Positions 1 through 19,661 of a stretch of DNA of 64,000 bases are shown here, in pieces. The number at the start of each line of letters is the position of its first letter. Positions within the stretch are counted from its first letter, which is position 1. The position numbers and the translations under genes are program-made. Source of the DNA: Streptomyces sp. NBC_01216 (lineage in GTDB: Bacteria; Actinomycetota; Actinomycetes; Streptomycetales; Streptomycetaceae); NCBI RefSeq assembly GCF_035994945.1, contig NZ_CP108677.1:3906001-3970000 (forward strand), written 5' to 3'. The notes below the pieces were generated by a model. That model saw nothing but the letters and a program-made list of their open reading frames with translations, was not told the origin of the DNA and made no database searches.

Positions 1-71
1 GCGGGGCGCCCCGCCGTGGCCCCGGCGGTCCGATTGGACACGCTCCGCACTCGTACGGATACGCTCCGGGC

Positions 72-1628
72 ATGGACTCCAGGCGCTTGCTCCGCACGTC
101 CGCCACCGCCCTCGCGGCGGCCGGGCTGATCCTCTCCGGCTGCACGGGCGGGAACGACGCCGCCGCCGGGCCGTCGTCCGAGCGGAAACCGGCCGCCTCC
201 TCCGCGTCCCCGGTGTCCGAAGCCGCCCTGCGGGGCTACTACACGCAGAAGCTCGCCTGGAGCGACTGCGGTGTCCCCGGATTCGAGTGCGCGACGCTCC
301 GCGCGCCGCTCGACTACGCGAAGCCGGACGAGGCGGAGATCGCACTGGCGGTGTCCCGGGTCCGGGCCACCGGCCCCGGCAAGCGGCTCGGCTCGCTCCT
401 GGTCAACCCCGGCGGCCCCGGCGGCTCCGCCGTCGGCTACCTCCAGGGCTACGCCGGCATCGGCTACCCGGCCCCGATCCGCGCCCGGTACGACATGGTC
501 GCCGTCGATCCGCGCGGAGTGGCGCGCAGCGAGCCCGTCGAGTGCCTGACCGGCCCCCAGATGGACGCGTTCACCCAGGTCGACCAGACCCCCGACGACG
601 ACGGCGAGACAGCGGCGCTGACCGCCTCCCTCAAAGGCTTCGCGACCGGCTGCGCCCAGCGTTCGGCGAAGATCCTGCCCCACGTCTCCACCGTCGAGGC
701 GGCACGGGACATGGACCTCCTGCGGGCCGTCCTCGGCGACCGGAAACTGACCTACGTCGGCGCGTCCTACGGCACCTTCCTCGGGGCCACCTACGCCGAA
801 CTCTTCCCCTCCCGCGTCGGACGGCTCGTCCTCGACGGGGCGATGGACCCCTCCCTGCCGGCGGAGGACCTCAACCGCGACCAGACGGCCGGCTTCGAGA
901 CCGCCTTCCGGTCCTTCGCCGCGGACTGCGTCGAGAAGGCCGGCTGCCCGCTCGGCACCAAGTCGGTCGCCGAGGCCACCGACAACCTCCGGGACTTCTT
1001 CCGCCGGGTCGACGCCCGGCCCCTGCCCACCGGCGAGAGCCGGGCACTCACGGAATCCCTGGCCACCACCGGCGTGATCGCCGCGATGTACGACGAGGGA
1101 GCCTGGCCGACGCTGCGCGAGGCCCTGACCCGGGCGATCGGCGGCCAGGGCGCGGGCCTGCTCGCCCTGGCCGACAGCTACTACGAGCGCGAAGCCGACG
1201 GCACGTACGCGAACCTGATGGCCGCCAACGCCGCCGTGAACTGCCTGGACCTTCCCTCCGCCTTCACCGGGCCCGCAGAGGTGGAGAAGGCCGTGTCCTC
1301 CTTCGAGAAGGCGTCCCCGGTCTTCGGCGAGAGTCTCGCCTGGGCATCCCTGAACTGCGCCTACTGGCCCAGCCCCGCGACCGGCCGCCCCCACCGCATC
1401 ACCGCCAAGGGCGCGGCCCCGATCGTCGTGGTCGGCACCACCCGCGACCCGGCCACCCCCTACAAGTGGGCCCGGTCCCTGGCCTCCCAGCTCTCCTCCG
1501 GCACCCTGCTGACCTACGAGGGCGACGGTCACACCGCGTACGGCCGCGGGAGCGACTGCATCGACACCGCGATCAACACCTACCTCCTCGAAGGGACCGC
1601 CCCGGAGGAGGGAAAGCGCTGCTCGTGA
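72..1628 (+). CDS. Secreted lipoprotein alpha/beta hydrolase, tripeptidyl aminopeptidase (Tap/Slp) family
   Basis: Extracellular, membrane-anchored peptidase that probably removes short N-terminal peptides from proteins or scavenged peptides. The 518-aa product starts with an Arg-rich n-region, a hydrophobic stretch and the lipobox LSGC, with Cys24 as the predicted lipidated residue. A Ser-rich linker follows. The alpha/beta hydrolase core shows NPGGPGGS (oxyanion region), the nucleophile elbow GASYG with Ser232, and a C-terminal Tap-type domain carrying the other likely triad residues, Asp459 (TRDPATPY) and His487 (GDGHTAYG). Length fits the Streptomyces SlpD/SlpE/Tap group. The start is the ATG that gives a proper signal peptide. 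It is monocistronic, upstream of tRNA-Thr. Substrate specificity cannot be read from sequence. Confidence 0.9.
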   Translation: MDSRRLLRTSATALAAAGLILSGCTGGNDAAAGPSSERKPAASSASPVSEAALRGYYTQKLAWSDCGVPGFECATLRAPLDYAKPDEAEIALAVSRVRATGPGKRLGSLLVNPGGPGGSAVGYLQGYAGIGYPAPIRARYDMVAVDPRGVARSEPVECLTGPQMDAFTQVDQTPDDDGETAALTASLKGFATGCAQRSAKILPHVSTVEAARDMDLLRAVLGDRKLTYVGASYGTFLGATYAELFPSRVGRLVLDGAMDPSLPAEDLNRDQTAGFETAFRSFAADCVEKAGCPLGTKSVAEATDNLRDFFRRVDARPLPTGESRALTESLATTGVIAAMYDEGAWPTLREALTRAIGGQGAGLLALADSYYEREADGTYANLMAANAAVNCLDLPSAFTGPAEVEKAVSSFEKASPVFGESLAWASLNCAYWPSPATGRPHRITAKGAAPIVVVGTTRDPATPYKWARSLASQLSSGTLLTYEGDGHTAYGRGSDCIDTAINTYLLEGTAPEEGKRCS

Positions 1629-1683
1629 AGGTGCCGGAGGCCACCCCGGGGGTGGTCGGAGCACCCCCGGAAACTGTGTAGAC

Positions 1684-1711
1684 TTGGCGACGCCGCTGCG
1701 CCCACTATGGA
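1684..1711 (+). promoter_or_regulatory. Probable promoter of tRNA-Thr
   Basis: TTGGCG at 1684-1689 and TATGGA at 1706-1711 are separated by 16 bp. They lie just upstream of the tRNA at 1723, as expected for a vegetative sigma-70-type promoter. Assigned by eye only. Confidence 0.4.
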
Positions 1712-1722
1712 TCGCACAGCAT

Positions 1723-1799
1723 GCCGCCTTAGCTCAGTTGGCCAGAGCAACGCACTCGTAATGCGTAGGTCTCGGGTTCGAATCCCGAAGGCGGCTCCA
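1723..1799 (+). tRNA. tRNA-Thr (anticodon CGT), with encoded CCA
   Basis: Cloverleaf: acceptor stem GCCGCCT (1723-1729) pairs with AGGCGGC (1789-1795), the anticodon stem ACGCA/TGCGT flanks loop CTCGTAA with anticodon CGT at 1757-1759, and the T-arm contains GGTTCGAATCC. The discriminator is T1796 and CCA follows at 1797-1799. The 3' half (1755-1797) is repeated at 12990-13032, so this tRNA gene is the attachment site of a genomic island. Its present 3' flank, including the last two bases of CCA and the terminator, appears to come from the island. Confidence 0.95.
1755..1797 (+). repeat. Left 43-bp attachment repeat (attL core), 3' half of tRNA-Thr
   Basis: Identical over 43 bp to 12990-13032. 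It spans from the anticodon loop to the end of the acceptor stem plus one base. This is the classic footprint of a tyrosine recombinase using the 3' end of a tRNA gene. Sequence diverges abruptly on both sides of the repeat. The two copies are 11,235 bp apart. Confidence 0.92.
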
Positions 1800-1804
1800 T
1801 TTTA

Positions 1805-1838
1805 GACCAGGCCAGATATGCTCTGACCTGGTCTTTTG
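1805..1838 (+). terminator. Rho-independent terminator after tRNA-Thr
   Basis: GACCAGG at 1805-1811 pairs with CCTGGTC at 1827-1833, followed by TTTT. It lies on the island side of attL, so the mobile DNA supplies the terminator for the reconstituted tRNA. The native terminator is now at 13038-13074. Confidence 0.8.
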
Positions 1839-1883
1839 TGTTCAGTTTCTGATGACTGGTCAGCTCTTGTGGTGGCTGGATGT

Positions 1884-1906
1884 TCAGGGGAGCGCGAGGG
1901 GAGCGC
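1884..1906 (+). repeat. 23-bp direct repeat inside left island end (possible integrase arm-type site)
   Basis: This 23-bp sequence contains two copies of GGGGAGCGC at an 11-bp period. It recurs exactly, in the same orientation, at 12848-12870 near the right end. Its place about 90 bp inside attL would fit an arm-type recombinase binding site, but that role is inference. Confidence 0.6.
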
Positions 1907-1921
1907 ATTCGAGCTCCGGAA

Positions 1922-2822
1922 TCAGGACCATGTCCGGGTGGCTGCGGCCCACGTCTGTGTGGCGGCTTCGCCCGTGATGCAGGGATCCGAGAAGGCGATG
2001 ACCTGCTGCACGACGTCGGTGAAGCGTTCGGGGTGGCCGGTTGCGGCAGTGCCTTGGCGGCGGCGCCACGCGGCATAGGAGCTCTGGCGCTGCTCGGCGA
2101 GGTCGGTGATCGCTGTGCTGAGTGGCTTGAGAGTGATGCCTCGGTGGGTGGCCGTGGCGGTCAGCGCGGCGGCGAGTTCCCGGCCGTCGAGGTCGTTGAG
2201 GGTGAGCAGGCGGTAGAGGTCGGCGTAGTCGCGGTCACGGGTGTTGAGGTCGCCGAGCGAGATGGCGGTGGTGAGCTTCTCGGCGATGACAGTGGCGAGG
2301 GGGTAGCCGAGGATCTGGAAGCTCTCCGAGGTGAGCTGCTGCGGGTAGTCGATGGTCTGCGGGCCGGGGGGTGACGGGGTCGCCGAAGCTGACGTCGAGC
2401 TGGAGCTTGAGACGGGCCCGTGCGATGGAGGCGGCCATCGACAGGCGCAGGCCGTGGTACTCGTCCTCTTCGCGGATCGGTACGGTCTTCAGTGTCGCCG
2501 GGTCGAAGGCGACGCCGTCGTCGGTCTCGGTTGCGGCGATGGCCGCGATCCTGCGAACGATCTCGGTTTCCTCGCCGGGGAAGGAACGGCCGAGGATGTC
2601 GATGTCGCGGGTCGTGCGGCGAGCCCCGAACTGGGCGAGCAGCAAGCCGCCCTTGAGTACGAAGTGTTCGCGGCCGAGGGGTGAGATGGCGAGGCGGTAG
2701 AGGAACCGTTCGAGTACGTACTCGACCATGATCTCGTCGGTGGAGCGGTTGGTGCGGCGGGCCAGGTTGCGCAGGTCGTTGTAGACGCGGCCGGCGGTGG
2801 TGCCGCGGGTGGGGTTCGGCAT
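1922..2822 (-). pseudogene. abiEii: AbiEii-type nucleotidyltransferase toxin, frameshifted
   Basis: Toxin of a type IV toxin-antitoxin/abortive infection pair, family of DNA polymerase beta-like nucleotidyltransferases. The uninterrupted 5' frame runs from ATG 2822 to a stop at 2235. It contains KGGLLL (residues 57-62) and the RRTTRDIDI metal-binding motif with Asp73 and Asp75. At a six-G run (2366-2371 on the plus strand) the homologous reading switches frame. Removing one base gives PGPQTIDYPQQL, LGYPLATVIAEKL and about 150 more family-like residues, ending at TGA 1922-1924, about 299 aa in all, the normal length. As read, the protein loses its C-terminal half. A base-calling error, true inactivation or slippage are all possible. 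The start overlaps the antitoxin stop (TGATG). Confidence 0.85.
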
Positions 2823-3436
2823 CAGGCGAGCACCGCCTCGACGGCGGGGCGGATGGTGGACAGCGCGTCCAGTTCCCGAGCGATGTCCTGGAGCTCGCGG
2901 GCGGCGCGGCGTCCGTCGCGCCGCAGGTAGCGGCCGAGTGCGGACAGGGCCAGGGTCTCGCCGATGCGGTGGCGGTGGCGCATGGCGTCGACGACGCTGC
3001 GGGCGGCGTTGTATACGGGGATGGTTTCTCCTGGGGCTGCTTCGAAGGGCTCGATGCCGAGGGCGAAGGTCTGTGCGGTGTACTGGGCGACAGTGGTGGG
3101 CGGGTAGGAGATCGTGGGGCGGCGGGTGCCGCGGGGTACGGCGATATGCACGGTGGTGGGGATGTCGTCGATCAGCTCATGCAGGGCGAGAGCCGACTCG
3201 CCGCAGATGACGGCATGGGGCGCCCGGATGCATACGGCCAGGAGGTCGGCGTGGGCGGTCTCCGGTGCGTCTGCTTTGCGGTAGACGCCACGGGAGAGGT
3301 CGTTGACGGCCCCCTCTCCGACCAGGGTGGCGAGATCGCGAGAGGAGAGCCGCGCCTGGTGTGCTTGCGCTGTGGTGAAAGTGGGGGGCAGGTGAGTCAG
3401 CCGCTGTGAGCGGCTGGGGTCTTTCGCGGCCGTCAT
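2822..3436 (-). CDS. abiEi: AbiEi-type antitoxin (type IV TA), transcriptional autorepressor
   Basis: Cognate antitoxin of AbiEii, 204 aa. The N-terminal part (about residues 15-55) reads like the winged-helix domain of this family (TTAQAHQARLSSRDLATLV, then a GVYRKA strand). The C-terminal part has the AbiEi motifs ESALALHELIDDIPTTVHIAVP and the ending helices that counter the toxin. The stop overlaps the toxin ATG by one base, so the pair is translationally coupled. AbiEi proteins bind inverted repeats in their own promoter, and a perfect 13-bp inverted repeat sits exactly on this start codon (3435-3485). The gene is intact although the toxin frame is broken. Confidence 0.87.
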   Translation of the reverse strand: MTAAKDPSRSQRLTHLPPTFTTAQAHQARLSSRDLATLVGEGAVNDLSRGVYRKADAPETAHADLLAVCIRAPHAVICGESALALHELIDDIPTTVHIAVPRGTRRPTISYPPTTVAQYTAQTFALGIEPFEAAPGETIPVYNAARSVVDAMRHRHRIGETLALSALGRYLRRDGRRAARELQDIARELDALSTIRPAVEAVLA

Positions 3437-3485
3437 GCATCAAATCGTACCCCTCTCGGGTGGTGATGGGTGCGATTTGATGCAT
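3435..3485 (-). promoter_or_regulatory. Operator-like inverted repeat at abiE promoter/start
   Basis: ATGCATCAAATCG (3435-3447) is perfectly repeated in inverted orientation at 3473-3485, with a 25-bp spacer. The proximal arm overlaps the abiEi start codon (3434-3436). The arms are AT-rich in a GC-rich background. AbiEi antitoxins of other bacteria repress by binding paired inverted repeats, so this is the natural operator candidate. Confidence 0.75.
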
Positions 3486-3537
3486 TCGGTGCGCTGGCCG
3501 TCTCGACGGTGGGGCGGCGCCCAGCAACAGGGCATCC

Positions 3538-3830
3538 TTACTCTTGACCCGCGAAACCACCCTTTGCCGGGAGGGCGCCGTCCGGCTTCGCGTGGCCCTT
3601 GCGGCGGGCTCGATCTTCAGGCCACGTTCGGGGAAGAGCCACAGGACGGGCGGTGCTGCGTGCAGTGCTCCATCAGCCACCGGATGCTCGCCGGAGTCCC
3701 CGTCCGGCACCGGTTTGATGCCCAGCCTTCCGTGGATGAGTTCCATCCGGAGGACTTCGCGCTCAGCGGCTGTGGCGATGCGCTCGAAGTCTTCGGCCGG
3801 CATCTTCCGCCGGTGCTCAGCGACGGTCAC
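3538..3830 (-). pseudogene. Uma2 family (DUF820) endonuclease remnant
   Basis: Read on the minus strand from 3830, the frame gives MPAEDFERIATAAEREV, MELIHGRLGIKPVPDGDSGE and, after a small deletion, LWLFPERGLKIE. One frame over it continues as RKGHAKPDGALPAKGGFAGQ and then a stop. These are the N-terminal and PD-motif parts of Uma2 restriction-endonuclease-like proteins, which are abundant in Streptomyces. At least two frame breaks and loss of the C-terminal half make it non-functional. It lies between the abiE operator and the Wadjet operon. Confidence 0.65.
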
Positions 3831-4108
3831 CAGACGCCTCCCACGCTCAGCCCAGGCGGGCCCGGGGCTGCGTGTGGCCTGTTGGCGTCCGGCAGGGCCG
3901 AGCCGCCCGAGCGGGGCCGGAGGAGGCAGCCCGGGGTCAGGGCCGCTGTCCGGCGCCGGGGCGGGATCTGTGAGGGCGCGGAGTCTACCCGCGTCGGCAG
4001 AGCTGGGAGGAGGGTTTCCCCTGCACGGTGTTCAGGCGGCAGACTGGGGGTCAGGCCCGGCAGTGTCCCACCGGTCCGTTCCGCCGTACGAGGAAGCCGC
4101 CGACGCTC
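3831..4108. other. Upstream region of the Wadjet operon
   Basis: About 280 bp with no convincing gene. It must contain the jet promoter, but I cannot pick a clear -35/-10 pair. A GAGGAAG purine stretch lies about 12-15 bp before the GTG at 4109. Confidence 0.4.
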
Positions 4109-5680
4109 GTGAGTCACGATTCCCTGGCCCCGTCGCAGGCCGCGCCGGCCGTCGCCGTTCCCGCAGATGCTGAGGAAGAAGGGGCCTTCGGGATCGACGC
4201 CTTCACCCTCGACGACCGACTTCGGCTCTTCCACTTCGCCGCCGCCGAGAAACGCCACGACTACTTGTGGCTGCTGCGCGCCTTCGAGCGGGGCCGGGCC
4301 AACTACCAGGTGTTGCTGAACGCGTCGGACGTGTCCGGGCTCCTGCGCCAGATGGCCGGGGAGTACGCCGGTGCGGCGGCCGTCGGCGACGTACAGCCGC
4401 TGCTCGACGCGCTCGCCGAGTGGCGTGTGCTCGACCGCAGTTACGACGGGACGCGGGCGGCGAACCTGGCGGAGTACCGCAACCGGCACTACGTGTATCA
4501 GTTCACCCAGGCCGGTTACCGGGCGTACCGGGCCGTGGAGGACGTGCTCGGCGCCGCCCTGGAGGACGCGCAGCTGTCGCGTCTGGTCTTCCCGGACATC
4601 CTCGCCGACCTGACCGCGCTGGCCGAGGCGAACGCCGCGGGCGACGCCGAGGAGGTCTACCGCAAGCTGGGCCGCCTGGACTCCGTGCTGAACGAGATGG
4701 CGCAGCGGGCGGCCCGCTTCTATCTGATGCTCGGCGACCTGGCGCGCACCAACGACACCCGGCCCGAGGTGTTCCTCGCGCACAAGGACGCGCTGCTCGC
4801 GCACATGCGGGAGTTCACCGCCGAGCTCGGGCGTTACGCGCCGCTGCTCGCCGAGGCGGTGGAGAAGGCCGCCGCGAGCGGTGTGGACCGGATGGTCGAG
4901 TACGCCGCGGAGGCCGACGAGCGACTCTTCCGGACCCCGGCCGCCCGTCTGGACGACTGGCGGCAGCGGTGGGGCGGCATCGTGCACTGGTTCGGGGAGC
5001 GTGAGCACAGCGAGGCCGAGCGGCTGCAGGACGCCACGGTCACCGCGATCCGTTCCGTGCTCGCGCTGCTGCGCCGGGTGACCGAAGCGCGGCGCGGCGG
5101 GGTCAGCCGGGAGAGCCAGCTGCGCCACCTCGCCCAGTGGTTCACCTCGTGCGTCAGCGACGACGACGCGCACGCTTTGTTCCAGGCGGTGTTCGGGCTC
5201 GGCGCGCCCCGGCACATCGCCGTCCCCTATCCGGATCCCGAGCTGATTCCGGGCCGTAGCTCTTGGTGGGAGGCCGAGCCGGTGGAGCTGGCCCGCACCC
5301 TGGTGCAGTCAGGCCGTACCCCTGCCCTCAAGGGCCCCGGCCGTATCGAGCGCAACGACGCGGAGCGGGCCCGGCTGCGGGCCGAGCAGATCAGGGAGCA
5401 GGCCGAGCGCCGGGGCGCGGCCGCCGCCCTGGCCCTCGACGGCGCCTACAGCAGGGTCCTCGACGAGGCCGAGACCCGCGCCCTGCTCTCCCTGATGGAC
5501 GTGGCGCTGGCCGCGCGGGTGCCGGTCACCCGGGGCGTGCCGGGCCCCACCGCCGCCGGCTCCGCGCACGGCGTACGTCTCACTCTCGTCCCGACGGGGC
5601 CCGGCGAGGCGTTCACCACGGTACGGACCGTGCGCGGGGATCTGCATCTTGACGGGCTGCGCCTGGAGGTCACCGGATGA
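4109..5680 (+). CDS. jetA: Wadjet type II protein JetA (DUF2397, TIGR02677)
   Basis: Kleisin-like subunit of a Wadjet SMC-type complex that recognises and removes circular plasmid DNA. The product is about 523 aa. The N-terminus has the DUF2397 pattern LRLFHFAAAEKRHDYLWLLRAF, followed by helical segments with LLRQMAGEYAG, RFYLMLGDLA, QRWGGIVHWF and LRHLAQWF, as expected for a winged-helix/helical MukF-like protein. GTG 4109 is preferred because homologous sequence begins just after it. An in-frame GTG at 4028 would add 27 residues without family character. The stop overlaps the jetB ATG (ATGA), so the genes are coupled. It lies inside the tRNA-Thr island. Confidence 0.87.
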   Translation: MSHDSLAPSQAAPAVAVPADAEEEGAFGIDAFTLDDRLRLFHFAAAEKRHDYLWLLRAFERGRANYQVLLNASDVSGLLRQMAGEYAGAAAVGDVQPLLDALAEWRVLDRSYDGTRAANLAEYRNRHYVYQFTQAGYRAYRAVEDVLGAALEDAQLSRLVFPDILADLTALAEANAAGDAEEVYRKLGRLDSVLNEMAQRAARFYLMLGDLARTNDTRPEVFLAHKDALLAHMREFTAELGRYAPLLAEAVEKAAASGVDRMVEYAAEADERLFRTPAARLDDWRQRWGGIVHWFGEREHSEAERLQDATVTAIRSVLALLRRVTEARRGGVSRESQLRHLAQWFTSCVSDDDAHALFQAVFGLGAPRHIAVPYPDPELIPGRSSWWEAEPVELARTLVQSGRTPALKGPGRIERNDAERARLRAEQIREQAERRGAAAALALDGAYSRVLDEAETRALLSLMDVALAARVPVTRGVPGPTAAGSAHGVRLTLVPTGPGEAFTTVRTVRGDLHLDGLRLEVTG

Positions 5681-7206
5681 GCACCCGCGTCGCCGAGAAC
5701 GTCTCGGCCCTGGAACTGGCCGACTACCAGAAGGCCGTGCGGCTGGTCCTGCGGCATCCGCTGATCACGCCGGTGTACCCGGACAGCGGCGCGCTGGCGA
5801 CCGTGCGGCGCTGGGCCGAGCAGCTGCGTACCGACCTGATGGACGTACTCGGATACCGGCTGGTCACCACCGCCGACACCGCCCGCCTCCAGCGCGCGCA
5901 GGACCGGCTCGATGCCACCCGGCCCGCGCTCAGCCGTGCGGGCCGCCCCTTCGACCGGCGCCGCTACGCCTATCTCGCCCTCACTCTGGCCGCCCTCGGC
6001 AGGCACGGAGCCCAGGTCGCGCTCGGTGAACTCGCCGACGCCGTCGCCGCCGACGCGGCCCGTATCGACGGTCTTGGCCTGGACACCGCCCGCAAGCACG
6101 ACCGGGACGCCTTCGTCGACGCGGTCAGCTGGCTCGCCGAACGCGGTGCCCTGAGGCTCGCCGACGGCTCGGCCGCCTCCTGGGCCTCGGATCCGGAGCG
6201 GGCCGAGGCGCTCTACGACGTCGACCGCGAGGTGCTCACCGCCGTTCACCAGCCCACCCGCGTCCTCCAGCACATCACCTCGGTGACCGGGCTCCTGGAC
6301 TCGGCGGGCGCCCGGAGCCTGTCCGAGGGGCGCCGGGCCCAGCGGCTCACCGCCGCCCGGCGGGCCAGGCGCCTGGTCCTGGAGAACCCGGTCGCCTACT
6401 ACGCCGACACCGACCCCGAGCTGACCGGCCAGCTGCGTGCCCCCGCGCTCGCCGAGGACCTCACCCGCCTCACCGGTCTGAGCGTCGAGCGCCGAGCAGA
6501 GGGCATCGCCCTGGTGGACACCTCGGGACGCCTGTCCGACCTGCGGTTCCCCGGCGGTGGCACCGTCGCCCAGGCCGCCCTGCTGCTCGGCTCGCGGATC
6601 AGTCAGGCAGCGGCGCGCACCGGGCGGCACGCGCCCGAGCCGCTGCCCGCGCCGACCGCCGCCGAACGCCTCGCGGACCGGGCCGGCCGTATCGACCTGG
6701 CCCTCCCGGCACACGGCGTGTTCGGGGAGATCGCGACGGGTGCGGCGGGTGCGGGTACGACCGGCGCGGACGCCGGGGCGGCGCACCGCGGGGCGGACGG
6801 GGACGAGGCGGATGGCGGACCGAACGCGGAGAGCGACTCCGTGTCCGCCCCGGAGGCCCGCTACCCGTTCGTCACCGCCTCCTGGCTGCGCGCCCGGATG
6901 AAGGACGTCATCGAGCGGTACGGGACCGGGTTCGCCGCCGACCTGCGCGGCGACCCCGACCGGCTGCTCGACCAGGCGCTGGACCTGCTGGCCGCCATGT
7001 CGCTCGTCGTACGGGTGGAGGGCGGCGTCCTCGCGCTGCCGCTCCTGGCCCGCTATCGCGGGGTGACGGCCGAGGTCAGGACCCGTACCCGGGTACGTAC
7101 CGCCGCGCCTGAGGCCGATGACGCGCCCGCCCCGGCCGCTTCCCAGGACGCCCTCGTCCCCGAGCCCCGCGCGCACACCGCCGACGATGTGAAGGACCCC
7201 GCCTAA
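5677..7206 (+). CDS. jetB: Wadjet type II protein JetB (DUF2398, TIGR02678)
   Basis: KITE-like partner of JetA and JetC, 509 aa. Recognisable DUF2398 features: the N-terminal ELADYQKAVRLVLRHPLITP, the GRPFDRRRYAYLALTLAALGRH segment, RLVLENPVAYYADTDPELT in the middle, and a C-terminal winged-helix-like region. A low-complexity Gly/Ala/Asp-rich linker (about residues 350-390) separates the last domain (YPFVTASWLRARMKDVIERYG). It starts 4 bp inside jetA and its stop abuts the jetC start, so the operon is translationally coupled. The C-terminal tail after about residue 465 is disordered-looking. Confidence 0.86.
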   Translation: MSTRVAENVSALELADYQKAVRLVLRHPLITPVYPDSGALATVRRWAEQLRTDLMDVLGYRLVTTADTARLQRAQDRLDATRPALSRAGRPFDRRRYAYLALTLAALGRHGAQVALGELADAVAADAARIDGLGLDTARKHDRDAFVDAVSWLAERGALRLADGSAASWASDPERAEALYDVDREVLTAVHQPTRVLQHITSVTGLLDSAGARSLSEGRRAQRLTAARRARRLVLENPVAYYADTDPELTGQLRAPALAEDLTRLTGLSVERRAEGIALVDTSGRLSDLRFPGGGTVAQAALLLGSRISQAAARTGRHAPEPLPAPTAAERLADRAGRIDLALPAHGVFGEIATGAAGAGTTGADAGAAHRGADGDEADGGPNAESDSVSAPEARYPFVTASWLRARMKDVIERYGTGFAADLRGDPDRLLDQALDLLAAMSLVVRVEGGVLALPLLARYRGVTAEVRTRTRVRTAAPEADDAPAPAASQDALVPEPRAHTADDVKDPA

Positions 7207-10200
7207 GTGAGCACCGCCGCCACCGACCTCAAGACCCGGTTCGTGCCCACCCGCGCCGGGATCGTCAACCTGTGGGACTACCGGGACGAGGAGTTCTCCT
7301 TCGCCGGAGGCTGGCTGGTGCTGCGCGGCCCCAACGGCTCGGGCAAGACCAAGGCCCTGGAGGTGCTGTTCCCGTTCGTCCTGGACGGCCGCATCGACCC
7401 CAAGCGGCTCAACCCGTTCGCCGCCGAGGACCGCACCATGAAGTCCAACCTGCTCTTCCGCGGGCAGGAGGGCGCGCTCGGATACGTATGGATCGAGTTC
7501 ACCCACCGCAGCACCGGGCAGGCGGTCACCTGCGGCATCGGCCTGCACGCCCAGAAACACCGGGACGCCCCCGCCCGCTGGCACTTCGTCGCCGACGGCC
7601 GGGTGGGAGAGGACTTCTCCCTGCTCACCGACGACGACCGGCCGCTGACGAAGAAGCAGCTGGCCGCCGAACTCGCCCCGCTCGGCGCCGAGCTGATCGC
7701 CTCGGCCACCGACTACCGGGCCGCCGTCGACCAGCGGCTCTTCGGCCTCGGCCGGGAGCGCTACGAACAGCTGCTCACCCTCATCCTCACGCTGCGCCGC
7801 CCTCAGCTGGCCAAGAACCTCGACCCGGCGAAGCTCTCCGACACCCTCACCGAGGGCCTGCGCCCGCTCGACGAGGACCTGATCGGTGAGGCCGCCCGCT
7901 CCTTCGACGACATGGAGTCCGTCCAGCGCACCCTGGACGGTCTGGTCGCCGCCGACGAGGCCACCCGGGCCTTCCTCGCCGCCTACTCGACCTACCTGCG
8001 GGTCAACGCCCGCGTCGCCGCCGACCGGCTCAGCGCGCGACGCGGGGAGAGCGAGCAGCGTGAGCGCGCCCACGCCGGGGCGGAGGCGGAGCTCGACCAG
8101 GCCCGCGACCGGCGGGAGGCGGCCGGCACCCGGGCCGACGAGACCGATGCGGCGCTCGCCGCGCTCCGCGCCCGCCTGGAGCAGCTGCGCTCCTCCGCCG
8201 CCTACCAGGCCGTCGAACAACTGGCCGATCTGGAACGTCTGGTGCGTACCTGCGAGCAGGCCGTCCGGCAGGCAGCCGACGAACACCGCCGCCGCGGCGC
8301 CGCCACCGGCCGGGCCCGCGCCGAGGCCGGGCACGCGGCCTCTCTCGCCGCCGAACTCGCCACCGCCGTCAGCGCCTCGGCCGCCGCCCTCGCCGACCAG
8401 GCTCACCGCGCCGGCATCCACTGGAGCGCCGCTGACGCGGACCCCGCGACCCTCGCCGAACGCGCCTCGGCCCGTGCCGCCGCCCGCCACGAAGGCGTAC
8501 GGGCGGTACGGGCCGCCGCGGCGCACCTGCGGGACGCCGAGCGGACCCGCGAGGCGGCCCGCGCCGGGCGGGAACGCGCCCAGGACGCGGTCCGCGGCGC
8601 CGAGCACGAGGAGCGGACGGCGCACGGCGCGCTCGTCGCGGCGCACCGGCAGGTGCGGGAGGAGCTTGAGGGGTGGACCGCCCAGTACGGCGAACTGCTG
8701 CCCCCGGACACCGCCGACCGTCTGACCGAGGCCCTCGACGCGGCCGCCGAGGCGGACGGCCCGGGGGCTTCGGCCCCCGGGCTCACCGACCTGTTCGCCG
8801 AGGCCGTCCCCCCCGCCGTCCAGGACCTGCGCGACCGCCTGGCCGCCCTGCGCACCGAGCGCGACGCGCTGCTCTCCCGCCGGGCCGAGATGGAGGCCGA
8901 GCGGACCCGGATCGCCGCCGAACACGACGACGCCCCGCCCGCCGCCCGCGGCCGAACCGCACCGCGCGGGGAGACCGGGGAGACCAGGGAGAGATCGGCC
9001 GTGCCCCTGTGGCGCCTGGTCGACTTCGCCGACCACCTCGACGACGCGGGGCGCGCGGGCGTCGAAGCGGCCCTGGAGGCGTCCGGCATCCTCGACGCGC
9101 TCGTCACCGCCGAGGACCGGCCCGTGACCGCCGCCGCCGGCGACGGATACCTGCGCGCCACCGCCCCCGTCGACGGACCCAGCCTCGCCGACCTGCTGCG
9201 TCCCGAGACCGGTACCGCGATCCCGTCCGCGAGGATCACCGCCGTACTCAGGTCGGTCGCCGTCGCCGACACGGTGAGCGACTCCAGCACCGCCACCGCC
9301 ACCGCCATCTGCCCGGACGGCCGCTACGCCGCCGGGATCCTCGTCGGCGCCCACACCAAACCGCACGCGGAGTACGTCGGCGCCACCGCCCGCGAGCGCC
9401 GCCGCGCCGCCCGCATCGCCGCCTGCGACGCTCTCCTGGCCGAACTCGGCGCCCAGCTCGACGAGCTGGCGCGGGCCGTGGCCGGCTGCGCGCGGGCCCT
9501 TGAGGAGTACGACACCGCCCGCGCCGCCCTTCCCCGTACCGCCGTCCTCACCCCGCACCTGCGCGCCCTGGACCGGGCGGTCGCCGCCCTGCGCGCCACC
9601 CGCGAGGCCCAGGATGCCGCCCAGTCGGTCCACGACGAGGCGCAGGCGGCCTGCGCGGTCGCCGAACGCGCCCTGCACCGGGCCGAGTCGGAGCACGGCG
9701 TCACCGCCGTCGGCGCGGACGACACCGAGTCCGCGACCCGTTCCTTCGAGCAGGCGGCGGCAGAACTGGCCACCCGCAGGCGCGAGCACGCCCGGCAGAA
9801 CGAGACCGCCGCCTCGGCCGCCGAGCGGCTCACCGTGACCGCCGAGGACGAGGAGAGGGCCGCCGAAGCCGAACAGGCGGCCCGCCGCCGCCACGCCGAG
9901 GAGGACGCCGGACTCCAGGCCCTGCGCGAGGCCGTCGGCGCCGAGGCTCGGCACGTCATGGCCCGTGTCGAGGAGACCGAGAACAGCCTGGAGGCAGCCA
10001 CGCGCGAGGCGGAGGCGGCCCGCAGGGCCAGGGACGAGGCGATCGGGCACCTGGCCGCCGCCGAGGCCCGGCGTACCGCCGCCGTCGACGCTCTGCGGGT
10101 CGCCGCCGCCGAGGAGCAGGACACCGCCCGCGGCCTCGCCCCGTACGCGGCCCGCGAACTCCTCGACCTCCTGCGCTGCCCGCCGGGTCTCGCCTGGCCC

Positions 10201-11337
10201 GCCCAGGAGGCCGACTGGACCGGCGCGGGACTGCCCGCCGCCGCCGTGGCCGTCCACGAGGCGATCCTGACCGCCACCCGCGACCTGACCCCCACCGAGT
10301 CCAGCGTCAAGCAGTCAGTCACCCGCCTCACCACGGCGCTGGAGGACCTGCACGCCCAGCTCGCCGCCGCCGGACAGGACTACCAGCCCGCCTGGGACAG
10401 CTCCAGCGGAGTGATCGTGGTGTCCGTCGCCGACGAACAGGGCCCGCTGCCGATCGCCTCGTTCGCCGAGAAGATTGCCGCACACCGCCGGGACCAGGCC
10501 GAACTCCTCTCGGATTCCGAACAGCGGATCCTTGAGGACGCCCTGCTCACCCGCCTCGCCCAGCAGATCCACGACCGCACCGTGGACGCCCGCGACCTCA
10601 TCCGCCGTATGAACACCGACATGCGTGAACGCCGCATGTCCTCGGGTACCACCGTCGGGGTGAGCTGGCTGCTCGCCGACACCCTCGACGACGAACAGCG
10701 GGCCGTCTGCGCCCTCCTGGACGCCGACGCCGCCCGCCTCGGCCCGGACAAGCTCGCCCGGATGCGCACCCACTTCGCCGCGCAGATCAAGAACTCCCGC
10801 GCCCGGCAGCGCGAGACCCCCTACCGGCAGCTGCTCGCCGAGGTCCTGGACTACCGGCGCTGGCGGCAGTTCGCCTTCCAGCTGGTCCGCCCCGGCAAGG
10901 ACGAGGAGCGCCTCACCCGCGCCCGGCACAGTCGGCTGTCCGGCGGCGAACAGTCCGTCTCCCTGCACCTGCCGCTGTTCGCCGCCGCCCATGCCATGCT
11001 CAACTCCGCCCACTCCGACGCCCCGCGCCTGCTCGCCCTCGACGAGGCGTTCGCGGGCGTCGACGACACAGGGCGCGGCGAACTGATGTCGCTGGCCGCC
11101 CAGTTCGACCTCGACCTGTTCATGACCGGGTACGACCTGTGGGCCGTGCACGCCGCGGTCGGCGCCGCTGCCCACTACGACCTCGCGCACTCCGCCGTGG
11201 ACCACACCGTCTCCGCGCTGCTGCTCCTGTGGGACGGCGAGCGTCTGCACGCCGACGACACCGGCACCCTGAGCGCCGCACTCGGCTCACCGGGCACCCG
11301 CTGCGTACACCGGGAGGCCCGGCTTGTCGGCGGCTGA
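7207..11337 (+). CDS. jetC: Wadjet type II SMC-like ATPase JetC (TIGR02680)
   Basis: Motor subunit, 1376 aa, related to MukB/SbcC. In Wadjet systems the JetABC complex extrudes DNA loops and detects closed circles small enough to be fully reeled in. Walker A is GPNGSGKT at residues 41-48. Long Ala/Glu/Arg-rich coiled coils occupy about residues 240-430 and 800-980, with a hinge-like globular part between (about 600-760). The ABC signature RLSGGEQS is near residue 1244 and Walker B LLALDEAF near 1274. All ATPase motifs look intact. The GTG start is directly adjacent to the jetB stop. A 1603-codon open frame on the opposite strand is a GC-bias shadow. Confidence 0.9.
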   Translation: MSTAATDLKTRFVPTRAGIVNLWDYRDEEFSFAGGWLVLRGPNGSGKTKALEVLFPFVLDGRIDPKRLNPFAAEDRTMKSNLLFRGQEGALGYVWIEFTHRSTGQAVTCGIGLHAQKHRDAPARWHFVADGRVGEDFSLLTDDDRPLTKKQLAAELAPLGAELIASATDYRAAVDQRLFGLGRERYEQLLTLILTLRRPQLAKNLDPAKLSDTLTEGLRPLDEDLIGEAARSFDDMESVQRTLDGLVAADEATRAFLAAYSTYLRVNARVAADRLSARRGESEQRERAHAGAEAELDQARDRREAAGTRADETDAALAALRARLEQLRSSAAYQAVEQLADLERLVRTCEQAVRQAADEHRRRGAATGRARAEAGHAASLAAELATAVSASAAALADQAHRAGIHWSAADADPATLAERASARAAARHEGVRAVRAAAAHLRDAERTREAARAGRERAQDAVRGAEHEERTAHGALVAAHRQVREELEGWTAQYGELLPPDTADRLTEALDAAAEADGPGASAPGLTDLFAEAVPPAVQDLRDRLAALRTERDALLSRRAEMEAERTRIAAEHDDAPPAARGRTAPRGETGETRERSAVPLWRLVDFADHLDDAGRAGVEAALEASGILDALVTAEDRPVTAAAGDGYLRATAPVDGPSLADLLRPETGTAIPSARITAVLRSVAVADTVSDSSTATATAICPDGRYAAGILVGAHTKPHAEYVGATARERRRAARIAACDALLAELGAQLDELARAVAGCARALEEYDTARAALPRTAVLTPHLRALDRAVAALRATREAQDAAQSVHDEAQAACAVAERALHRAESEHGVTAVGADDTESATRSFEQAAAELATRRREHARQNETAASAAERLTVTAEDEERAAEAEQAARRRHAEEDAGLQALREAVGAEARHVMARVEETENSLEAATREAEAARRARDEAIGHLAAAEARRTAAVDALRVAAAEEQDTARGLAPYAARELLDLLRCPPGLAWPAQEADWTGAGLPAAAVAVHEAILTATRDLTPTESSVKQSVTRLTTALEDLHAQLAAAGQDYQPAWDSSSGVIVVSVADEQGPLPIASFAEKIAAHRRDQAELLSDSEQRILEDALLTRLAQQIHDRTVDARDLIRRMNTDMRERRMSSGTTVGVSWLLADTLDDEQRAVCALLDADAARLGPDKLARMRTHFAAQIKNSRARQRETPYRQLLAEVLDYRRWRQFAFQLVRPGKDEERLTRARHSRLSGGEQSVSLHLPLFAAAHAMLNSAHSDAPRLLALDEAFAGVDDTGRGELMSLAAQFDLDLFMTGYDLWAVHAAVGAAAHYDLAHSAVDHTVSALLLLWDGERLHADDTGTLSAALGSPGTRCVHREARLVGG

Positions 11338-12697
11338 GAACGTGGCGGCAGACCCATCGGGTCCGGTCGCGGGTTCGCCTCCACGCTCCGAGCCGAGCGG
11401 TGCGACACCCCCGCCGTCGTACGCCGAACTGGCCGGCGAGGGCTGGCGGCGCCTGATCGCCGCCGCCCGGCGCCGGCTTGAGCGCACCGGAGGAGCCCTC
11501 GACGGCGACATCGGCCTCACCGCGCCCACCGAAGCCGAACGCCGTACGGTCATCGGCGTCACCGGCCGCTATCGCCCCGAGACCGTCAGACGTCTCACCA
11601 TTCCCCTCTCCGACCTCGACACCTACCTGTACGACCGGTACGGCACCGGCCTGCTCCAGACCCTGGGCGCTCTGCGCGGCCCGCTGCGCGACCGGCCGGC
11701 CGAGCGCGCCGACGAGGCGGCCGCCCGTGCCCGAGTTCTCGAAGCGGCCCACGCCTCACCCCTGGTCGGCCGGGACTGGTACCCGGCCTGGTTGGAGAGG
11801 GTCACCGCCGACGGCACCCTCACCCGCCTCGTGCGGCGTGGCGACGGCGCCCTGCTGGCGGCGGCCGTCCGTGTGCTGGAGGTACTGGAGTTGCCGGACC
11901 TACCGGATCTACCGGACCTGCCCGGAACACGCGGCGACGGCGGCCGGGGCCCGCTTCCCCTGCCCGTCCTCGCGGAGTGGACCACGGGGGACACCAAGGC
12001 CCTGGTCCCGGGCGGCCCGCTCGAACAACTCGTGCTGCGCGCCCTCGCCCAGCGCGCCGCGGCCGACGGCGGGCCGCCGGTCCGGGTTCCCCAGGACCGG
12101 GCGGGGCGCCGCGCCCTGTGGGAAGGCGCCGGAGCCGTCGCCGACGACCTCGCCAGCCAGGTCCTCGTCCTCAACGTCGGCGCCATGGGCGACGACACGG
12201 TCTGCGACTGGCTGCGCGACGCCACCGGCTTCGGCATCCCCTTCCGCCTCACGCTCCACCAGCTGACCAGCGCCGACGTCGTGCCCGCCGCCCGCGAGAT
12301 CCACGTCTGCGAGAACCCGGCCGTCCTGCGCGCCGCCGCCGCCGAACTCGCCGACCGCGCCGCGGCCCTGGTCTGCACCGAAGGCGTTCCCTCCGCCGCC
12401 TGCCATAGGCTCCTCGCCGCCGCGGCCCGCGCCGGCGCCCGCCTGCACTGGCGCGCGGACTTCGACTGGACCGGCCTGCGGATCACCGCCGCCGCCCTGG
12501 AGCGGCACGGTGCCCGTCCCTGGCGCATGACCGCGGCCGACTACCGGGGCGCCCTGGAACGGGGCGAGTCCACGGGGCTGGCCGGATCGCCCGCCGCCAG
12601 CCCCTGGGACCCCTCCCTCGCTTCCGCACTGAGCGAGTCGGGCCAGGCGGTCATGGAGGAACGACTGCTACCCGAACTCCTGTCCGACCTCGGCTGA
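11324..12697 (+). CDS. jetD: Wadjet type II nuclease JetD (DUF2399/DUF3323, Toprim-like)
   Basis: Effector nuclease that cuts the DNA captured by JetABC. The product is 457 aa. The N-terminal half is DUF3323-like (LAGEGWRRLIAAARRRLE, LSDLDTYLYDRYGTGLLQTL). The C-terminal DUF2399 part contains VLNVGAMGDD, VCTEGVPSAACHRLL and the acidic DFDWTGLRI motif near residue 380, expected to form the Toprim metal site. A TTG start at 11324 has GGGAGG at 11312-11317 with 6-bp spacing and overlaps jetC by 14 bp. GTG 11342 is an alternative. A PDLP repeat (about residues 190-198) forms a short linker. It is the last gene of the island operon. Confidence 0.87.
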   Translation: MSAAENVAADPSGPVAGSPPRSEPSGATPPPSYAELAGEGWRRLIAAARRRLERTGGALDGDIGLTAPTEAERRTVIGVTGRYRPETVRRLTIPLSDLDTYLYDRYGTGLLQTLGALRGPLRDRPAERADEAAARARVLEAAHASPLVGRDWYPAWLERVTADGTLTRLVRRGDGALLAAAVRVLEVLELPDLPDLPDLPGTRGDGGRGPLPLPVLAEWTTGDTKALVPGGPLEQLVLRALAQRAAADGGPPVRVPQDRAGRRALWEGAGAVADDLASQVLVLNVGAMGDDTVCDWLRDATGFGIPFRLTLHQLTSADVVPAAREIHVCENPAVLRAAAAELADRAAALVCTEGVPSAACHRLLAAAARAGARLHWRADFDWTGLRITAAALERHGARPWRMTAADYRGALERGESTGLAGSPAASPWDPSLASALSESGQAVMEERLLPELLSDLG

Positions 12698-12989
12698 CGC
12701 GCTTGCCGCGGGGCGAGGTGTGGACGTCGACGACGCGGATGCGGTCGCCGGGGCGGAACTGGATGCCCGGAGTTGTCGGAACCACACAGGCGGCTCCGCG
12801 GCGCGCATTCCGACAGCTGTCCGCTGTCAGACCGCCACCGAAGGCGGTCAGGGGAGCGCGAGGGGAGCGCGGACGCCTTTGGACGGTGCGGCACTGGGCA
12901 CGCACAGCGGGACCGCGACATGTGCTGTGATCTGGGGAAACGGGATCTGTCACGATCCCATGGCACAGCCCGGCACGATCGCTGTCGGC
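12698..12989. other. Right end of the island, no intact gene
   Basis: About 290 bp between jetD and attR. It holds the second 23-bp repeat, an adjacent GACCGCC/GGCGGTC inverted repeat (12830-12849), and on the minus strand a short run reading FRPGDRIRVVDVHTSP. That run looks like a protein fragment but I could not assign it. No integrase or excisionase is visible. Confidence 0.5.
12848..12870 (+). repeat. 23-bp direct repeat inside right island end
   Basis: Exact copy, same orientation, of 1884-1906, including the double GGGGAGCGC. It lies about 120 bp inside attR. Symmetric placement at both ends suggests recombinase arm-type sites of the original attP. Confidence 0.6.
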
Positions 12990-13032
12990 CTCGTAATGCG
13001 TAGGTCTCGGGTTCGAATCCCGAAGGCGGCTC
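12990..13032 (+). repeat. Right 43-bp attachment repeat (attR core)
   Basis: Duplicate of the tRNA-Thr 3' half (1755-1797) without the 5' half, so it is not a functional tRNA. Sequence to its right (CGGATC and a strong terminator) is presumably the original 3' flank of the tRNA gene. The original gene therefore lacked an encoded CCA. Confidence 0.92.
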
Positions 13033-13037
13033 GGATC

Positions 13038-13074
13038 AGCCCCAGGACTCACTCGCCGTGACCTGGGGCTTTTT
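13038..13074 (+). terminator. Original tRNA-Thr terminator, displaced by the island
   Basis: GCCCCAGG (13039-13046) pairs with CCTGGGGC (13062-13069), followed by a T run to 13074. It sits immediately after the attR copy, as a terminator does after an intact tRNA. Confidence 0.8.
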
Positions 13075-13082
13075 CATGCCCC

Positions 13083-13422
13083 TTACCTGAGCGGACATGC
13101 GGCAGCGGGGGTCCGATACCTCGTGCGTGAGCATGCGGGAGCGACGGGGCTGTCAACCCGTGGACACGGGTCTCGCCCGCCGGTGGTCGCCGGTGAGCGG
13201 CCCGTCGCGGCAGAGCGGAAGCAGCGGCGCAGGCCGAATGCACGGCGGTGCTCCGTGCTCGCGGTGGCGAGCCGGGCGGCCATCGGGTCGTGGGTTGCGG
13301 TGGCGTCGGTGAGCCGGGCCTGCTGGACGGCCGAAGCGCGCGCCGGCTGTTCTGGCGTCCGGTGTGCCGGGGGGGCTGGGACGGTGCGCTGAGTTCAGCG
13401 GGAGGAGGAGGCCGCGGGACCT
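13083..13422. other. Intergenic stretch without recognisable gene
   Basis: GC-rich, and open frames are present only by base bias. I recognise no protein motif, RNA or repeat. It may be decayed DNA next to the island. Confidence 0.4.
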
Positions 13423-13515
13423 GACTGGAACGCCGATACCGACTTCGACGTCTGTCTCCAGGACGTTCCGCTCACGAGTCGGTGCCCGGATGTCGTCGTG
13501 TACCAGCCCGCGACC
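13423..13515 (+). pseudogene. Second Uma2-like fragment
   Basis: Thirty-one codons read DWNADTDFDVCLQDVPL, then TSRCPDVVVYQP, which resembles the central PD-containing strand region of Uma2 endonucleases. No start, no further domain and no flanking homology in frame. It represents a different Uma2 subfamily from the fragment at 3538-3830 and lies outside the att repeats. Confidence 0.5.
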
Positions 13516-13595
13516 CGAGCCGCCGGATCGCGCGTTGCGGGTGGCCGGCCTGGACGCGGCCGTGCTGTCGCGTCTTCTGGCCGGGGCGCGGTCGG

Positions 13596-15689: not shown

Positions 15690-15712
15690 GGCGTGTGAGG
15701 CTTTCTGTGAGC

Positions 15713-17920: not shown

Positions 17921-17926
17921 CGGCCA

Positions 17927-18829
17927 TCAGTCCAGAGCGGCGGGGGAGGGGAGTTCGGCGGCGAGGACCCGCGCCGACTGGCGTGCCAGCGCGGCGATCA
18001 CGGCTGCCGGCAGCGGAATCGGAGCGACCGTGTCCAGGGCGGTGGGCGGATGCGTCGGCGGAGGCGTCGCCGTACTCGCGCCGTGCGCCAGGTGGGTGAG
18101 GACCTCGTGCGCCTGGGGGCGTCTCGCGGGATCACGGGCGAGGCATGCCGAGATCACGGCGCGCAGCGAGGGGGGCAGTTCCCGGCTTTCGGGCACGGTG
18201 TGGCCGGTGCTCGCCTGGGCGAGTACCGCGCCCAGGGCGTACACGTCTCCCAGGGGGCGTGGCCGTCCGCCGGATGCCTGCTCCGGGGCGAGGCTGCCGG
18301 AGTCCAGTCCCGGCAGTCCGCTGCGGTGCTCACCGTCGGGGGCGGCGGCCCGCACGGCCCCGAAGCAACTGAGGCGGGGGCCTTCGGTGGTGAGCAGGAC
18401 GGCTGCCGGGGAGAGACCCGCGTGCGTCACGCCGTGGGCGTGGGCAGCGGCCAGCGTCCCGGCGAGGGCGGTGCCCAGTGCCCGCACGACGGGCTCGGGC
18501 AGCGGACCGCCGTGGGCCCGCAGGACGGCGGGCAGGGGGAGTGCCGGGACGTACGGTGTCGCGCACCAGCGCAGGTCACCCGGGCCGCCGACCTCCTCGA
18601 CCGTGAGGAACCCCGGGATCGAGAGGCGGCGGGCGTCCTCCGCCTCGACGGTCCAGCGGGCGGGGTCCGCTCCGGCGAGCGGAAGGCGGACGAGGGAGGT
18701 GCGGTCGCCGTCGGCGCCGCGGCTGATGAAGAGGCGTTCCGGTACGGCCTGTTCGGACTCCGGGGCGAGCCGGGCCAGCGTGCGGTGTGGTCCGGTCCAG
18801 GGAGGGTCGTCCTCGCGCAGACGTTCCAC
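17927..18829 (-). CDS. Pseudokinase (degenerate protein-kinase-like protein)
   Basis: 300 aa with the overall kinase fold signature but without catalytic residues. The VAIK lysine is not present (SLVRLPLAG), the HRD motif is HAG (136-138, HAGLSPAAVLL) and DFG is CFG (155-157). The APEQ motif (181-184), the DVYALGAVLAQA helix and the RPQAHEVL end of the kinase domain are retained. No transmembrane segment or PQQ repeats. It is first in the operon with two active-looking kinases, so it may act as an allosteric partner or scaffold (inference). The start is GTG 18829. In-frame integrity and the preserved C-lobe argue against a decaying pseudogene. Confidence 0.75.
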   Translation of the reverse strand: MERLREDDPPWTGPHRTLARLAPESEQAVPERLFISRGADGDRTSLVRLPLAGADPARWTVEAEDARRLSIPGFLTVEEVGGPGDLRWCATPYVPALPLPAVLRAHGGPLPEPVVRALGTALAGTLAAAHAHGVTHAGLSPAAVLLTTEGPRLSCFGAVRAAAPDGEHRSGLPGLDSGSLAPEQASGGRPRPLGDVYALGAVLAQASTGHTVPESRELPPSLRAVISACLARDPARRPQAHEVLTHLAHGASTATPPPTHPPTALDTVAPIPLPAAVIAALARQSARVLAAELPSPAALD

Positions 18830-18889
18830 GTGCGGTCTCCCCCCGGTCTGTGATGAGCGAGGACGAGCCTACTCAGACGTCTGTGCGAC

Positions 18890-18913
18890 CTGAGGGCCGG
18901 TACCGGCCCTCAG
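18890..18913. promoter_or_regulatory. Perfect 24-bp palindrome upstream of the kinase unit
   Basis: CTGAGGGCCGG-TA-CCGGCCCTCAG reads identically on both strands. It lies 61 bp before the pseudokinase start and downstream of the DUF6479 gene. It could be an operator or part of a terminator. Confidence 0.4.
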
Positions 18914-19018
18914 CGGGGTTCGGTGCCGGTGCCAGGACCGGACGGGCGGTCGGCGCGTGGCGTGGAGGCCGGGCGGACGGGCGACTCGCGTGGGCGACAC
19001 GTGAGCGGAGTGGGTGTC

Positions 19019-19046
19019 GGCCCCCGCCCATGGCCGGGCGGGGGCC
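19019..19046 (-). terminator. Hairpin after the DUF6479 gene
   Basis: GGCCCCCGCCC (19019-19029) pairs with GGGCGGGGGCC (19036-19046) with a 6-nt loop, 9 bp past the stop codon of the minus-strand gene. No T tract follows, as is common in Streptomyces. Confidence 0.6.
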
Positions 19047-19055
19047 GTACCGGCG

Positions 19056-19448: not shown

Positions 19449-19661
19449 ACTCCATGATTACCCCGTTTCGAGTGGTTTTGGATGCTCGCGACTCATGAAC
19501 TCGTCCGAAAGCGTCCGCCGACCCCTCGCGCCCGGACTCCGGCGCTGGAAGACCGATGAAGACCTTGCTTCGGCCGCCCGACTCACCCCGGATCGCCAGT
19601 AAATGTCAATCGGTATGAATTGCCGCAAGCCGGGCACGATTTCAAGATCTTCAGGACGCCT

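Follow-up and report, generated by a model that had tools for sequence, protein, structure and literature searches.

The window analysed here is a stretch of 64,000 nucleotides from Streptomyces sp. NBC_01216 (NZ_CP108677.1, positions 3,906,001 to 3,970,000), in which ARAGORN detected a single tRNA gene, a tRNA-Thr(CGT), and in which an island of about 11 kb carrying a type II Wadjet defence system follows the 3′ half of that gene (Table 1). The island is bracketed by two copies of a 43-bp core, one within the tRNA gene and one displaced, which are identical at 43 of 43 positions. Only these two copies were found at 100% identity in the 7.7-Mb genome, the six other matches being partial and 75–84% identical. 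An earlier reading of this DNA (hereafter the sequence-only reading) had proposed that such a repeat delimits the island, and the genome search agrees with it. Directly after the tRNA copy of the core lies a hairpin that is probably a tRNA terminator supplied by the element; a hairpin-like stretch occupies the same spot in other left ends, as judged by eye.

The four genes jetABCD are arranged in order in one operon, and all of them match the PADLOC type II Jet models over most of their length (E = 9e-123 or better), which is the gene complement of Wadjet type II. Wadjet destroys circular plasmids, and plasmid restriction by the window copy is predicted from its genes. The sequence-only reading had also listed abiEi, abiEii and a Uma2 remnant. 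The abiEi antitoxin gene and the complete jetABCD set stand, while abiEii is broken as assembled and the Uma2 label is weak, the open reading frame (ORF) in question giving no match in a Pfam search. An AbiE system requires an intact abiEi and an abiEii nucleotidyltransferase gene; here abiEi is intact and abiEii is out of frame, its ORF spanning only profile positions 9–160 of 294 with the remainder in another frame. The gene is one indel apart from the intact 299-aa gene of the relative L079, and the frame loss is possibly an assembly error.

No gene for a recombinase was detected inside the island. Tyrosine recombinase domains (PF00589, 22 matches in the genome) and serine recombinase domains (PF00239, 12 matches in the genome) are both without a match in the window; on the latter search, recombination by a serine integrase is rejected for this island. 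When 32 integrase sequences (two pairs of them duplicates) were compared with the island by tblastn, nothing was found at E = 1e-4, and integrase traces in the window or its right flank were limited to weak matches (best E = 0.016). Among the small island ORFs scanned against Pfam and PHROG there was no recombinase and no replication match, the sole hits being weak ones to a transcriptional-repressor PHROG (E = 0.006) and a seed-protein Pfam family (E = 0.02), and no stand-alone excisionase (Xis) gene was found in window positions 1–20000. The absence of recombinase, excisionase and replication genes noted by the sequence-only reading is upheld by these searches. Transfer genes (relaxase, TraB/FtsK) had no Pfam or PHROG match in the ORFs scanned, the main ORFs being those of abiE and jet, and clusters of conjugation-type 8-mers in the island are just GC-rich repeats within jetC. 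Phage structural and packaging PHROGs were likewise without a match in the small island ORFs (the abiE and jet ORFs lay outside the PHROG scan).

The island has retained an apparently complete attachment site with two arms. Just inside each core, and in the same orientation at both ends, lies a pair of direct repeats of the sequence AGGGGAGCGC-G-AGGGGAGCGC; these identical arm repeats, as well as a decayed element from 13033 to about 13502, are absent from the sequence-only reading. A 20-mer of the arm pair has exact copies in the 7.7-Mb genome only at the two island sites, and no further exact copy was found at the integrase loci of this genome. The attP of lambda-type tyrosine integrases consists of a core, a P arm and a P′ arm, and because the 43-bp core with both arms has the same layout, the repeats appear to represent attachment-site architecture. 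Across the genus, the arm 20-mer with at most one mismatch was found in 25 of 392 genomes (own included), against seven for a reversed-pattern control in the same listing. At seven of the 29 arm-motif loci (L039–L067), a tRNA gene (tRNA-Thr in six cases, tRNA-Lys in one) lies no more than about 1.5 kb away. Among the displaced cores listed, 28 have the right-end signature GGACGCCTTTGGACGG (two mismatches or fewer) at −118 to −120; it follows the arms in both the AGGGGAGCGC and GGTGG classes and is absent from the GCGTGAGCG class. The gap between right-end arm and core is 118–120 bp in the AGGGGAGCGC class.

Tandem 9-mers (8/9 or better, 11-bp period) were scored in distinct displaced cores across the genus, 13 of 49 of which come from loci picked by arm motif (the L275 copy of ISL-66, the same as L122, was omitted). 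At a fixed offset, 39 of 49 displaced cores have them, compared with 1 of 19 tRNA cores and 31 of 9000 random positions, by which a chance origin is rejected. With the motif-picked loci removed, arms are present in 28 of 36 displaced cores (all 18 picked by JetC and 10 of 18 picked by core copies). In 10 of 23 islands the right arm recurs within the left end, at +88 to +99 or +201 to +214, with 16–21 of 21 letters matching.

Table 1. Features of the tRNA-Thr island and its right-hand neighbour (window positions)
Feature	Position	Strand	Evidence or remark
tRNA-Thr(CGT), intact, integration target	1723..1799	+	ARAGORN
43-bp core, tRNA copy, attL side	1755..1797	+	exact repeat
Hairpin directly after core	1804..1834	+	inverted repeat 13 nt, 92%
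Left arm pair, two 9-bp direct repeats, 11-bp period	1886..1906	+	88 bp from core
abiEii, N-terminal part	2235..2822	-	PADLOC; frame lost near 2.37 kb
abiEi	2822..3436	-	PADLOC E 2e-94; 93% to G329 island protein
Possible Uma2-like remnant	3607..3830	-	48% over 48 residues to one annotated Uma2 protein
jetA (DUF2397)	4028..5680	+	PADLOC 3.5e-167; Pfam
jetB (DUF2398)	5677..7206	+	PADLOC 1e-176; Pfam
jetC (MukB-like)	7207..11337	+	PADLOC E 0
jetD (DUF2399/DUF3323)	11324..12697	+	PADLOC 9e-123; Pfam
Right arm pair, 21/21 identical to left pair	12850..12870	+	119 bp before distal core
Right-end signature GGACGCCTTTGGACGG	12871..12886	+	directly after right arms
43-bp core, displaced copy, attR side	12990..13032	+	exact repeat
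Left end of second element, ISL-43/ISL-66 Wadjet type, remnant	13033..13147	+	90-92% to L121/L122 left ends
Uma2 gene fragment of second element	13411..13502	+	85-87% to L121/L122/L149 Uma2 region

Tyrosine integrases at these elements, which have PF00589 and a SAM-like N-terminal domain and are named IntThr here, have relatives at E = 1e-100 in 95 of 392 genomes. Three IntThr-bearing elements for which both ends were seen (G014, G332 and G224) have AGGGGAGCGC-type arms at 118–119 bp spacing. A core with at most 12 mismatches to the 43-mer is present at 21 of 30 integrase loci, and all 21 of these have tandem arms at +90 to +102, against 45 hits among 9000 points drawn at random from these loci. 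As far as the sequences tell, the arm sequence follows the integrase subclass. Integrases 80–84% identical to the query occur with GGGGAGCGC arms (two loci and the query's own element), those at 70% with GGTGGACA/GGTGGCC arms (two loci), and those at 60–63% with GCGTGAGCG arms (16 loci), and one locus with an integrase at 61% has GTGAGCCCG arms. On the integrase tree, some rows of which are partial proteins, the four arm classes need three changes, the minimum, with 16 of 22 labelled rows falling in one class. The window arms match one subclass, and the arms presumably bind the integrase. A small Xis-like gene adjoins the integrase in 30 of 30 loci, its HTH_17 match being weak and below the Pfam cut-off. 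Xis-like genes were also observed beside right-end arms (L268:2081-2449(-), L080:2621-3040, L081:8444-8755 and L125:2258-2452). L268 is a 5.4-kb cassette with an Xis-like gene and without an integrase; L080, L081 and L125 were read in part, and in L081 an ORF for an unrelated integrase lies about 6 kb off. Such cassette genes could direct excision by a borrowed integrase.

Integrase-less segments are common among those examined. Twenty-two of 26 core-to-core segments, which are not a random sample (eight picked by JetC, five by arm motif with the window included, and 13 by core copies), have no integrase. The 13 core-copy segments, which were chosen short (about 20 kb or less), comprise nine without an integrase, three with one and one with a remnant, and several longer core-to-core segments have an IntThr gene at the tRNA end. 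A Pfam tally of 79 cargo ORFs covers the top 25 of 121 families, so that a single recombinase match could escape it.

Sister Wadjet islands provide the evidence for movement. JetC relatives were found at 316 places in named genomes, of which the best 80 were kept and 50 were examined for cores. JetC lies between two cores in eight of these 50 loci (ISL-43, ISL-66, A3M-1-3, ISL-12, ISL-96, AC1-42W, S. ipomoeae and S. guryensis), and tblastn found no integrase match inside any of the eight islands. The tRNA-Thr gene is in view in two (ISL-12 and A3M-1-3), and the other six show a displaced core on the left. These islands use the arm classes GCGTGAGCG and GGTGGCC/GGTGGACA, to which the window adds a third “address.” The islands of ISL-12 and ISL-96 (L132/L134) share 97.4% identity across 12.6 kb and 94.2% across the final 1.2 kb, whereas topA of their hosts is 87.0% identical. 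The similarity runs from the first core base to about 40 nt beyond the second core, with no in-register homology outside. ISL-98 is the topA sister of ISL-96 (94.3%), yet its jet operon is only 80% identical (one core of the ISL-98 island is in view). For all 31 pairs that fall within one of the two jet clusters, identity is higher in the jet operon than at topA (topA was compared for 16 of 17 genomes; ISL-66 gave none). In approximately unbiased (AU) tests on groups named after the identities were seen, topA rejected a clade of ISL-12 and ISL-96 (P = 0.00018) and a clade of the five cluster-A hosts (P = 2e-17), and jet rejected a clade of ISL-98 and ISL-96 (P = 5e-52). The sequence-only reading had named island genes at the same place in distant species as a sign of vertical inheritance. 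Wadjet genes were indeed found so placed in eight other Streptomyces, and the AU tests reject vertical descent for these islands. At the level of sequence, these comparisons demonstrate that integrase-less sister Wadjet islands moved between Streptomyces species as core-to-core units.

The window island is a mosaic. Its AbiE end and arms are of the G329 type (88% over 1755–3508), whereas its jet operon, at 85% BLAST identity across about 8.7 kb, belongs to the ISL-43 lineage; compared with G329, identity is 88.5% for the AbiE end and 82.2% for topA. Judging from these matches, cargo has evidently been exchanged between cassettes. To the right of the island, the stretch from 13033 to about 13502 is, by its similarity, a second, decayed Wadjet-type cassette. 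The first ~49 nt of its left end also equal a native-type terminator, G015 being 100% identical over 92 nt from the core start, and the L121 gene in the corresponding Uma2 region is Uma2 by Pfam. Sister cassettes occupy outer positions in arrays that have an IntThr gene in the part nearest the tRNA. One contig of G329 has an IntThr gene 12 kb past tRNA-Thr and, further out, an AbiE cassette that has the same arms and no integrase; 100–138 kb there are outside the region read, so more cores may sit between integrase and cassette. A search for empty sites with the joined flanks against 100 relatives gave many matches, continuous for only ~40–50 nt past the core, which corresponds to the terminator; in G040 and G041 an integrase follows, which makes these matches no clean test of an empty site.

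Directly beyond the decayed cassette, window 13596-17920(-) contains two consecutive protein kinase-like ORFs, the first assigned by Pfam with a BamB/PQQ-like part and the second by eye. They have no blastn match in L147 or L083, though window 19.67–19.98 kb matches there. Elsewhere in the genome, at C1:3137749-3151838 (L088), a tRNA-Thr-like gene (84%) adjoins a PF00589 integrase (L025, 579 aa), and a 44-bp partial copy (82%) lies 14 kb away, making this a candidate second island. L025 is 75–82% identical to the integrases of the tRNA-Thr(CGT) islands L281 and L283, whose arm repeats have a 12-bp period at best. Some cargo recurs close to right-end arms: a Uma2 gene in L121, L149, L277 and L132 (Pfam for L121 and L132), found with two arm classes, and a PIN/VapB-like pair in L150 and L277 (Pfam for L150). 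These genes are possible stabilisation modules tied to an att end. A two-gene cargo, encoding a 389–393-aa protein without a Pfam match and a 2OG-Fe(II) oxygenase protein, is carried by an integrase-less cassette (L079:7321-8502(-), 8662-10932(+)) and recurs adjoining the ISL-43 Wadjet island (L121:1653-5260) at 87.6% over 3.6 kb; the pair is a candidate for an uncharacterised defence pair.

Taken together, we believe, with a probability of roughly 0.7, that the tRNA-Thr(CGT) island is a non-autonomous cassette of defence genes, resembling a cis-mobilizable element (CIME), which is moved by integrases of other tRNA-Thr elements. The sequence-only reading had left two alternatives, a remnant and a cassette mobilised by another element. 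For the class of islands as a whole the second is favoured, because of the many integrase-less islands, the kept arms, the match of arm and integrase, and the core-exact transfer. Under such circumstances, an IntThr of the matching subclass would be supplied by another tRNA-Thr element, e.g., a prophage or larger island, and would bind the core and arms. Excision or insertion may then involve just the cassette (in trans) or the cassette joined to an adjacent helper (in tandem, as for a CIME). With no matching integrase at E = 1e-100 in the present genome, the cassette would be waiting for an incoming helper. The cargo would pay its way by defence, through Wadjet II and through AbiE, which was probably a toxin–antitoxin module and is now broken; one may speculate that Wadjet excludes competing plasmid-like elements. 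More tentatively, and short of an even chance in our estimate, a genus-wide tRNA-Thr system may exist in which each integrase-less defence cassette carries a two-armed attP with an arm “address” for one integrase subclass, prophage and island integrases act in trans, some cassettes have a stand-alone excisionase, and cargo switches address by array recombination.

Several observations weigh against this reading. Ten of the 49 displaced cores, eight of them among the 18 picked by core copies, are without an 11-bp-period arm, some having a 12-bp period and others none. The left arm copy matches at only 11–15 of 21 letters in the remaining 13 of 23 islands, and 9 of 30 integrase loci are without a core within the ~1.5 kb covered. 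When all 91 pairs are taken, jet identity exceeds that of topA in only 33, since two deep jet lineages exist. The naming of the AU groups after the fact and the unread part of G329 belong here as well. The evidence for transfer comes from the sister islands rather than from the window copy, whose mobility is predicted. The best IntThr homologue in its own genome is 36% identical, abiEii is broken, and the window jet operon is 87–88% identical to cluster A, where topA is 86–88%, with jet higher in two of five pairs only.

The last three observations would fit a frozen remnant, i.e., an ordinary island that lost its integrase, is now immobile, and whose ends survive by chance or recent age, and so would the decayed second element next door. 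As the jet divergence is about that of topA, the window copy may have arrived long ago. However, arms and cores identical at both ends are not expected in an old relic, and both the frequency of integrase-less islands among those examined and the core-to-core spread of the integrase-less sisters between species argue against it, and we regard a frozen remnant as unlikely.

Phage satellites have their own integrase or carry phage-interference or packaging genes. The cassettes might be satellites of tRNA-Thr prophages carried in phage particles, which we consider improbable. In ISL-66, the tRNA-proximal element has a related integrase and, over the part read, is a prophage (endolysin, tail, head, terminase and replication genes); it lies before the Wadjet cassette. 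Of the 42 ORFs in the G329 and G332 elements, individual ones match PHROGs for tail, virion and endolysin proteins. One viral contig carries a 7.7-kb segment that runs from core to core with no integrase match, and four of nine viral contigs with an exact core encode IntThr relatives. On the other hand, the window island has no integrase and no phage structural, packaging or interference match among its small ORFs, and the G224 element looks like a defence island. JetC was sought in viral contigs without success. In phage records, the right end of the island has no match and the closest integrase is 42% identical. Viral contigs also have no match to the arm motif combined with the right-hand signature, and the right end has partial matches only in 13 plasmid records, none covering 80%. 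Spread by homologous recombination or bulk chromosome exchange, with the repeats serving as homology only, would account for the tandem arrays with common ends and shuffled cargo (the AbiE end shared with G329 and Wadjet with ISL-43-type elements), but is improbable given that the ISL-12/ISL-96 similarity begins at the first core base without in-register flank homology and that arm class follows integrase subclass. Homologous recombination is likely to shuffle cargo inside arrays in addition to integrase movement.

If the island is indeed a cassette moved by borrowed integrases, defence genes without visible mobility genes may spread by keeping the DNA address of an integrase and borrowing the enzyme. 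The arm-class code would predict which helper moves which cassette, and address switching, if real, would let one defence system travel with several helper families. A paradox arises, in that Wadjet, a destroyer of circular plasmids, rides on DNA that would pass through a circle.

CIMEs are defined in one account as decayed integrative and conjugative elements (ICEs) or integrative and mobilizable elements that keep attL and attR without integration or transfer genes (PMC5704250). The window island is similar in having attL and attR flanks (their att function being presumed) and neither recombinase nor transfer genes, and CIMEs sit in tandem with integrase-bearing elements. As to a decay origin, the window island shares its ends with integrase-bearing elements but has no integrase remnant inside. 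Here, in contrast to CIMEs, the integrase-less form is frequent at one tRNA, both arm pairs are kept, and horizontal spread has occurred without an integrase gene. Among the Dehalococcoides ssrA islands, tandem elements between RNA-gene direct repeats, 15 without an integration module were proposed as possible CIMEs (PMC3146451). Those islands involve a serine recombinase and a tmRNA target, whereas here the integrase class is tyrosine, the target is tRNA-Thr, and arm-type sites and defence cargo are present. For Streptomyces, one study describes accretion of several actinomycete integrative and conjugative elements (AICEs) between identical repeats at one tRNA, tRNA-Thr as the target of an ICE and an AICE, and an ancient trace devoid of traB (PMC9513070). 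Defective AICEs keep traB, whereas no transfer, replication or integration gene was found in the window island, which thus lacks the set that marks an AICE or ICE. Streptomyces elements once thought integrase-less, one placed near a tRNA-Thr gene, are mentioned in another source (PMC10711302). Clusters of attC sites lacking integron integrases (CALIN), i.e., cassette arrays mobilised by an integrase elsewhere, are treated in a review of hitchhiking elements (PMC11389934). The recombinase differs there, and attC sites take the place of a tRNA core with arms, so the likeness is an analogy only. The attC sites of CALIN are hairpins. A full-text literature search, judged by titles and abstract openings, returned no description of such an integrase-less Wadjet tRNA-Thr system. 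The Wadjet type II genes of the window are ordinary, with nothing unusual seen, and the novelty is in the vehicle rather than in these genes. CIMEs and tandem accretion are known already; new in comparison are the arm-address code, Wadjet as cargo and the fact that cassettes without an integrase have spread as core-exact units.

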